Shown piece after piece: positions 50,901 to 53,900 of a stretch of DNA of 64,000 nt (positions are counted from its first letter, which is position 1; each line of letters opens with the position of its first letter). The position numbers and the translations under genes were made by a program. Source of the DNA: Semisulcospira habei. Its lineage: Eukaryota; Mollusca; Gastropoda; Semisulcospiridae. The notes under the pieces are model-generated. The model saw nothing but the letters and a program-made list of their open reading frames with translations, was not told where the DNA came from and searched no databases. The DNA lies in NCBI GenBank assembly GCA_036245525.1, contig BTPG01000006.1, positions 88,555,535 to 88,619,534 of the forward strand, written 5' to 3'.

Positions 50901-53900
50901 GGCCAAGTTTGTCAACGCCCTGGTGATCAGTGGTTCCCATCAGCTTGAGAGTGCCGTTGTCACCGCTGTAATCAACCCGTTCAGGGTCGAGGAAATCAGA
51001 ACACCACCCAACTGCAAGAGGCATAGATCCTCATGAGCCCCCGCAGTTGCGGGGGCTCATGAGGATCTATGCCTCTCGCCGACGCCACCTTGAATCCGTT
51101 GCCTGAGGAAGCTCGGACAGTTCTGGTGTTGAAATCACAAGGAATGCAGAAACGCAGTCTGCGTCAACTGGCGCTAAACGCATTAAAGTGTGATGATCTC
51201 AGATTTTGGACCTCACAGCTCCGAGCCATGAGGTCCAGATTCAAAGACCATCGCACGTAAAGAAAACCCCAACAAAGATAAAAACACGCTTAAAAAGAAC
51301 AATGCAATTTATTATCATTTTCAGGACATTCAGACATACAGACCAGAATACAACGCATTGCTTATCTTTCTTTTGCTAGATGTATAACTGAAGGTGTGAC
51401 ATTATAAGTATTGGTCGGAGGGGTTTGCTACAAGGACCCTTGTAGGCCTGAGGGAGGTCAAAGGAACCATTGTACCCCGAAGGCCTGAGGGGTACAATGC
51501 TTCCTTTGACCTCCCAAAGGCCTACAACGGTCCGTGCAGCAAGCCCCCGCTCCCAATCACGTATATGTTTTCATTTCTCCACTATTTTCGTAAAAGAAAT
51601 CAAGACGAAATCTTCTGACCTGGATCACGCCAAACATAACTGACATCAAAGGAATAATTATACATTTATACATAATAGACTTATGACGCAATTCTAAATT
51701 TCACGACGTTTCTGTCTCCAGTAGTGTGCCTGATGTTTCGAACAACACTAAGTAACATTGTACTTTAGAAAATTTTAGCGATTTTTTTTGGGTAGAAAAA
51801 ACAACTGGCACCCAAGACGTGTCAGAAAGAGGGCTACAAAATGTCCGCTATTAGTCGCTACAATATAAGTTATTGGTCGCAGGGGTTTGCTACACGGACC
51901 CTTGTAGGTCTGAGGGAGGTCAAAGGAACCATTGTACCCCGAAGGCCTGAGCGGTGCAATAGTTCCTTTGACCTCCCAAAGGCCTACAAGGGTCCGTGCA
52001 GCAAGCCCCTGCTACCAATAACGTATTTGTTTTCCTCCAATGTTTTCGTAAAATAAATCAAGAAGAAATCTTCCGACCTGGATCACGCCAGATAAGACTG
52101 ACGACAAAGGAATATACATTTAATAATAATAATAATAATGAGTATTTATATAGCGCTTAATCTTACTCAAAAGCTCTAAGCGCTTTACAATCTGTACACA
52201 AAAATAAAAAATACAATGACATATGCACATAACAAACAAAGCACAATGCCCGAACACACCACTTTTACAATAAACTAAACAACAATACATACATAATAAT
52301 TTATATTCTAATTAACATTCAGTCTAAACAAGGAGGATTGCAGAACTACAACTAAGGCATCAAACACTGGCAGTTATTCAAAGTAAAGCTTGAAGAGGTG
52401 AGTTTTCAACGACCTCTTGAAGTCAGAGACAGACTCATTGTTTCTGACCTCAAGAGGAAGTGTATTCCATAACACTGGGGCTTGATAAACAAAAGTGCGC
52501 TGACCAAATGTTTTAGTTTGGACAGAAGGTACACACGACTTCCGTTTATCAGAAGAGGAGCGGAGCTCACGAGAGGGTGTATACACATGCAGCAAAGAGG
52601 ACAAGTATTCTGGGCTGGTGCCTAAAAGCAGTTAAAACAGATTGACATAACTTTGTATTGAATACGTGAGGACACAGGTAGCCAGTGAAGGGACTTCAAG
52701 ATGGGTGTGACATGCTCAGTCTTACGGACTCTCACAACAAGCCGGGCTGCATTGTTCTGAATTTTTTGGAGGCGATCAATGAGATACTGAGGGCAGCCAC
52801 AAAGCAAAGAGTTACAATAATCTAGCTTGGACAGCACAAATGCACAAACTATTATACATAATAGAATTATGACGTAATTAAAAATCTTTCATGACGTTGC
52901 CGTCCACAGTAGTGTGCTTGTTGTTTCAAACAACACTAAGTATCTTTGTACTTTAGACCGTTTTGATGATCTTTTATAGAACAAAACTGGCATCTAAGAC
53001 GCGTCAGAAAGAGGGCTACAAAAAGTCGGCCATTTGTCGCTACAAGGGTTTTTGTATCCCGGTCACATGGTACGTTTTGCGCTAAAGTTATTGGTCGTGT
53101 GACGTAGGGATGAAAACAATGTTTTTTTGTAGCTCGGTCATGTAGTACGGTTTGCGCTAAAGGGGCTGGTCGTGTGACGTAGGGATGAAAACAATAAAAA
53201 TTATCACACGTACAAGCTGCGTGTATACATTTTGATTTGACGTGAAATGTAATTGAGATATGAAATTAAGAGGAGTCCTGAAAAAGCGACCTTCTCCTTC
53301 TAAGGCAATAAAGGGTTGGCAGATCGCAATATCTCCTAAATTGTGCTATTGGTGTCCGTACTGTTGGCGGGAGTCCTCTCCAGATAGACCCACACGGGGA
53401 GTACACCACAAGTACACTTCTATTCAAATGAGATGCGTAGCATCTCATTTGAATAAAAGTGTACTTGTGGCGTACTCCCAGAGTGGGTCTGTCTGGGGAA
53501 TACTCTCACAAGCAGTACGGGATGACTTTTGATAATACTGCACCAAAGACTAACGTAACTTGTATTTCATTATGAAGTTTGAACGCTGAAAAAGTCCCAT
53601 TAAAAAAAAAAAAATTCATGTGTACCTGTAGATTTGTCCATCCGTTTCCAGAAAAGGGGGAGCACTCTGGAGCCATGTCTTCTGCCCTTGCTTCAAGACG
53701 TAGTTGCCGCTACTACTGTCAAGGGTAAACTGGAACTGCACTGCCTGCTTTGCTTTGTGGCTGGTGTGTTCCTGCATGGCAGCTGAAAATTATTAAAAAA
53801 ACAAAACAAACCCAAACTAAACCAAACGCATATTGGCGTAAAACACGGGTCAAAACTGCATTTTCTCATGCACACGATGAAATCCCTCTAAAGTATCCAA

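Follow-up and report, generated by a model that had tools for sequence, protein, structure and literature searches.

The window analysed here is a 64,000-nucleotide stretch of the 1.98 Gb Semisulcospira habei genome (contig BTPG01000006.1, positions 88,555,535 to 88,619,534) and carries two paralogous genes, A and B, both encoded on the minus strand, as are all features at the locus described below. Together with further copies they form a one-strand tandem array made up of A, B, C, D, E, a piece F and G, which was surveyed over 304 kb (the window with 100 kb on each side, then 40 kb more); paralog counts refer to this range. For F, exons 2 and 3 alone were found, at ~171.5-171.9 kb on the window scale (L049, outside the window and within the array). 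In gene B, exon 2 (53626..53781, start placed at the AG), exon 3 (50797..50965), exon 4 (50335..50486), exons 5-7 (49497-49395, 49037-48909, 48596-48491) and exons 8-9 (47662-47566, 46607-46512) constitute a single open frame with AG and GT at the exon edges. Exons 2-9 of gene A occupy 28134-18770, with exon 3 at 26785-26617. Exons 3-9 are likewise open in A, B, C, D, E and G, where the paralog exon edges were picked to be AG and GT. The gene B protein has five sequence relatives, the named ones being from Elysia (two) and Patella (one), and a Pfam search with it gave no family match.

Exon 3 of gene B measures 169 nt, so that skipping it would shift the frame, as the preliminary description of this DNA had stated. 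Its acceptor, too, stands where it had been placed: exons 2-9 are open, the join to exon 2 reads TAC AG|C GGT and is gapless in the protein alignment with P0001 from Elysia marginata, and an AG occupies the equivalent position in all six further paralogous copies. A search for tRNA genes in the window with ARAGORN returned none, and an Rfam search of positions 50700-51700 yielded 19 matches up to E 1, none reaching the gathering score. Elsewhere in the window, a stretch of ~106 bp is present in two tandem copies (~47097-47310), and two long minus-strand open frames (1903-3594 and 55699-57690) look tyrosine recombinase- and reverse transcriptase-like; these three features were recognized by eye.

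Directly in front of exon 3, gene B harbors a mobile element, H1, whose 207 bp (50976..51182) comprise terminal repeats and a central palindrome and were delimited by an alignment of 33 copies. H1 lies between an upstream TTAA target copy (51183..51186) and a downstream copy that has changed from TTAA to TTGA (50972..50975), and ends 6 nt before the exon together with this second copy. TTACAG (50966..50971) is all that remains of the old acceptor, and positions -11 to -217 relative to exon 3 consist of H1. The 3' end of intron 2 reads CATCACACTTTAA-[207 bp]-TTGATTACAG in gene B, whereas gene A ends this intron in CATCACACTTAATTACAG and retains an empty TTAA without H1 (site TTAATTACAG, 26786..26795). 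The central palindrome (51014..51079) spans 66 bp, with 32-nt arms that are 97% complementary. The preliminary description had read 50972-51186 as a hairpin element splitting a TTAA that gene A still keeps; this interval indeed holds H1 plus both 4-bp target copies, the empty site, the flanks and the TTACAG remnant were all found, and the element sequence that it had quoted (TTCTGATTTCCTCGACCCTG) is present at 51001-50982. Among the seven paralogous copies, B is alone in having H1 at exon 3.

H1 belongs to a repeat family, and its presence at this site is therefore not a chance likeness. A first look at the genome gave 2489 candidate matches, 40 of which were scored, and the 304 kb contain 81 H1 loci, 29 of them at least 150 bp long. 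Besides the gene B copy, the alignment comprises five copies from the window and 27 further ones from the genome; the genome copies are the best matches to the gene B copy and hence biased towards it, and one match (L001) was the gene B copy again and was left out of later counts. Of these 33 copies, gene B included, 13 retain TTAA at both flanks, 17 at a single flank and three at neither. The consensus is 207 bp long, TTAA-flanked, and has perfect 13-bp terminal repeats (CCCGTTCAGTGCC / GGCACTGAACGGG) around the 66-bp palindrome; in the gene B copy the first letters of the terminal repeats are altered. Ends of piggyBac-type MITEs begin with CCC. H1 combines a TTAA target duplication with terminal inverted repeats that begin with CCC and, judged by target and ends, resembles these elements. 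It shares with them the TTAA target copies, the CCC-starting repeats and the short length, and differs in its strong central palindrome. The palindrome is also the less divergent part of the element, with 47/1781 differing sites compared with 368/3785 in the rest for the 27 genome copies, 24/329 versus 130/683 for the five window copies, and 2/66 versus 32/141 for the gene B copy. Any one of three causes could account for this: conversion between the arms, selection or search bias.

Upstream of H1 lies a second, shorter palindrome, the hairpin element H2 (51188..51256), which is found at the equivalent place in other paralogs: H2, or at least its right arm, aligns just before exon 3 in 7/7 paralogous copies. 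Eleven H2 loci of at least 55 bp occur in the 304 kb, and five of them are exon-3 copies (A, B, C, E and G). In C-G the stretch from H2 to exon 3 resembles ATAAGTACGTACATGTCTTACAG, and A and B have a shorter form of it in common. Comparison with the ATAATTACGTACATGTCTTACAG of F suggests that ~13 nt were deleted between a pair of TTAC repeats and that a single base change created the TTAA. The exon 3 acceptor site of gene A seems itself derived, and it scores poorly. The preliminary description overlooked this older hairpin; its observation of H1 is right and its reasoning good, yet the pyrimidine tract that it assigned to the element is poor, as detailed below.

We compared the divergence of the insertion with that of its host gene. 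The H1 of gene B differs from the family consensus at 34/207 sites (JC 0.185), and part of this may be shared subfamily change; a hand estimate using its nearest relatives (L005, L003) puts the copy's own share at ~0.14-0.155. Tree and branch rates were computed from exons 3-9, with exon 2 of all genes left out. In the unrooted six-gene tree, the groupings (C,D) and (E,G) have support values of 99 and 100, and the split between A plus B and the other genes has 85. Taking A as sister, the terminal branch of B has a dS of 0.170 (0.103-0.234), a dN of 0.044 and an omega of 0.26 (0.16-0.47), which reached 1 or more in 0/400 bootstraps; choosing G or C as sister gave 0.32 and 0.33. Exon 3 alone has a dS of 0.168 and a dN of 0.025 on the B branch, with a wide omega interval (0.002-1.17; at least 1 in 12/400 bootstraps). 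Gene B is under purifying selection while carrying H1. Since the divergence of H1 is close to the dS of the B branch and omega is low, B has probably been functional for most of its time with the element, and an H1 of this age in a gene under purifying selection argues that exon 3 is probably still spliced normally.

Branch points usually lie about 18-45 nt before the acceptor. As the old intron end is reduced to TTGATTACAG, a branch point at this distance must lie within H1. The best candidate is TTCTGAT (50995..51001), whose A (50996) lies 31 nt from exon 3; the CTGAT motif at -31 scores 4.54, on motif weights entered by hand. Acceptors were scored with a matrix built from 56 acceptors of 16 exons in this one gene family, exon 3 being left out, and 63 acceptors were scored in all. 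At 5.87, the exon 3 acceptor of gene B is the highest of the seven exon-3 acceptors (A 1.06, C -3.05, D 1.48, E 4.31, F 1.10, G 1.74) and 38th of the 63. By this measure, H1 has not weakened it. The 46 nt directly before TTACAG contain no AG. Pyrimidines are less well represented: the pyrimidine-rich TTTCCTCGACCC (50984..50995) is a weak tract, and the content at -25..-5 (52%) is among the lowest of the 63 acceptors, with similar values in C, E and G. The proposal that H1 supplies a new 3' splice signal accordingly holds in part, for the branch-point zone, which would by sequence lie wholly in H1, and much less well for the pyrimidine tract.

How unusual such an element end is was gauged by joining random stretches of the 304 kb to TTACAG (n=19,649). 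The B acceptor score is reached by 22% of them, the B branch score by 20% and the 46-nt AG-free length by 12%, and the H1 end is therefore adequate rather than striking. When the ends of the 33 H1 copies were joined in silico to TTACAG, that of gene B ranked second. Relative to the consensus, the gene B copy carries an A-to-T change by which a CAG was lost and the CTGAT gained; this is a single change and no proof of selection. Within the last 217 nt of intron 2, no AG other than TTACAG preserves the frame: the 13 AGs further upstream (13/13) all lead to a stop within exons 2-4.

Two of these 13 upstream AGs, both inside H1, outscore the authentic acceptor, while the remaining 11 score from -12.12 to 2.01; the idea of a single strong decoy in H1 is thereby ruled out. 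The first decoy, CTCTTGCAG (51012..51020; score 7.39), lies at the base of the hairpin, at -46, and its use would bring a stop five codons after the last full codon of exon 2. The second, CCAG (51168..51171; score 6.73), is located at -202, close to the opposite end of H1, and would give an immediate stop. The H1 region folds very stably in silico (-158.9 kcal/mol, z -9.4 versus shuffles). The -46 decoy was mostly paired in 3/3 folding windows (predicted unpaired 0.08-0.23), and TTACAG was unpaired at 0.52, 0.92 and 0.94 in the same three. The branch motif is predicted to be unpaired at just 0.34-0.62, and the -202 decoy, outside the central hairpin, at 0.26.

Collectively, these results favor, with a probability of about two in three, the reading that H1 entered intron 2 of gene B and that splicing of exon 3 continues to use TTACAG, with the branch point in H1 and the nearest strong decoy hidden. 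A TTAA-targeting MITE inserted at the 3' end of this intron, probably soon after A and B split, and would have replaced a branch-point zone that already bordered the older H2. The branch point would then come from the terminal 46 nt of H1, where the A of TTCTGAT is the strongest candidate, and the H1 hairpin would keep the nearest strong decoy acceptor paired and hence out of reach.

The decoys might instead be used in a sizeable share of transcripts, the -46 site directly or the -202 site with a branch point in H2, destroying these transcripts and so lowering or tuning the output of B. Both outscore the authentic site and lead to early stops, a CTCAT motif precedes the -46 decoy by 23 nt, and a cryptic acceptor of such kind is described for the merle SINE (PMC7349775). 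The -46 decoy and its CTCAT motif are, however, situated in the hairpin stem, the -202 decoy is predicted to be largely paired and gene B is constrained, and we regard sizeable decoy use as improbable. Nor do we expect that exon 3 is mostly skipped or mis-spliced in a decaying copy, the outcome that the preliminary description saw as the sole alternative to a signal in H1. The weak tract, the two higher-scoring decoys and a 66-nt hairpin adjoining the acceptor would all fit such decay; the open exons 2-9 bounded by AG and GT, the low omega without a single bootstrap of 1 or more, and an H1 about as old as the branch speak against it and make skipping as the main outcome unlikely. A branch point still in or before H2, with the H1 hairpin looped out to bridge the distance, is very unlikely: ATCAC branch-like motifs at the H2 ends in C, E, F and G and the very stable fold would suit it, but 13 AGs lie between H2 and TTACAG, several of them outside the hairpin, and a scanning spliceosome should halt at one of these.

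H1 could be partly "splice-safe", with its best acceptor hidden at the hairpin foot and its terminal 46 nt free of AG and equipped with a usable branch motif. Such an element could insert right at an acceptor and assume the role of the branch zone, which H2 had bordered earlier, without disabling the gene; this would help to explain why H1 is abundant in the array and why its palindrome diverges slowly. We consider this property a long shot, and full splice-safety is doubtful because of the -202 decoy, which lowers its odds.

Two other element insertions bear comparison with H1. One is the merle SINE of canine PMEL, located where intron 10 meets exon 11 (PMC7349775). Like H1, this SINE occupies the region of an acceptor whose original form survives in a target copy, displaces the branch point and contains a cryptic acceptor; it differs in being a retroelement that has a poly(A) tail and is associated with a known phenotype, whereas H1 is an old DNA-transposon-like MITE in a constrained gene. 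In the other, a MIR and an AluSp in BLOC1S2 (PMC6822395) parallel H2 and H1 as successive insertions at one place with predicted branch points that are element-derived; they create a new alternative exon, whereas in gene B an ancestral exon would stay in place with its branch zone replaced. Two marks of an element-derived splice signal are seen in gene B: by sequence, the putative signal is positioned inside H1, and the host gene appears to have been selected while carrying it. Judged by titles and abstract openings, none of the papers among the matches listed dealt with a branch-point zone replaced by a TTAA MITE. The tandem array presents the same acceptor seven times in a single genome, with H1 in one copy and lacking in the other six, and hence an internal test of what share of a 3' splice signal mobile DNA can replace without loss of the exon, as well as of whether a hairpin can shield a gene from element-borne decoy sites.

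A second H1 insertion near exon 5, common to two copies, adds to this test. In C and D, H1 is present in the other orientation, its match ending 29 and 16 nt before exon 5 (L041 and L044, at about 89093 and 118559 on the window scale, outside the window). C and D are sisters, and this is therefore likely one insertion that preceded their split. Gene A has a TTAA 17 nt before exon 5, and an H1 match at this exon was looked for in A, B, E and G and found in none of them. Exons 3-9 are open in both C and D, in line with the reading favored for gene B.

Overall, an H1 match ends no more than 60 nt from the acceptor in 4/63 cases (B exon 3, D exon 5, C exon 5 and B exon 19). Enrichment of H1 near acceptors is unconvincing, as these represent at most three independent events compared with ~1.0 expected (a hand estimate from 81 loci in 304 kb), and the idea that H1 aims at branch points via TTAA enrichment is unsupported, with 15 TTAA at -50..-5 versus 12.4 expected across the 63 acceptors. 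Before exon 19 of gene B, the H1-type copy (window ~33224-33370) ends 52 nt upstream of the acceptor, and before exon 19 of gene A (~7517-7600) a seemingly different TTAA element, recognized by eye, ends at the equivalent TTAA.
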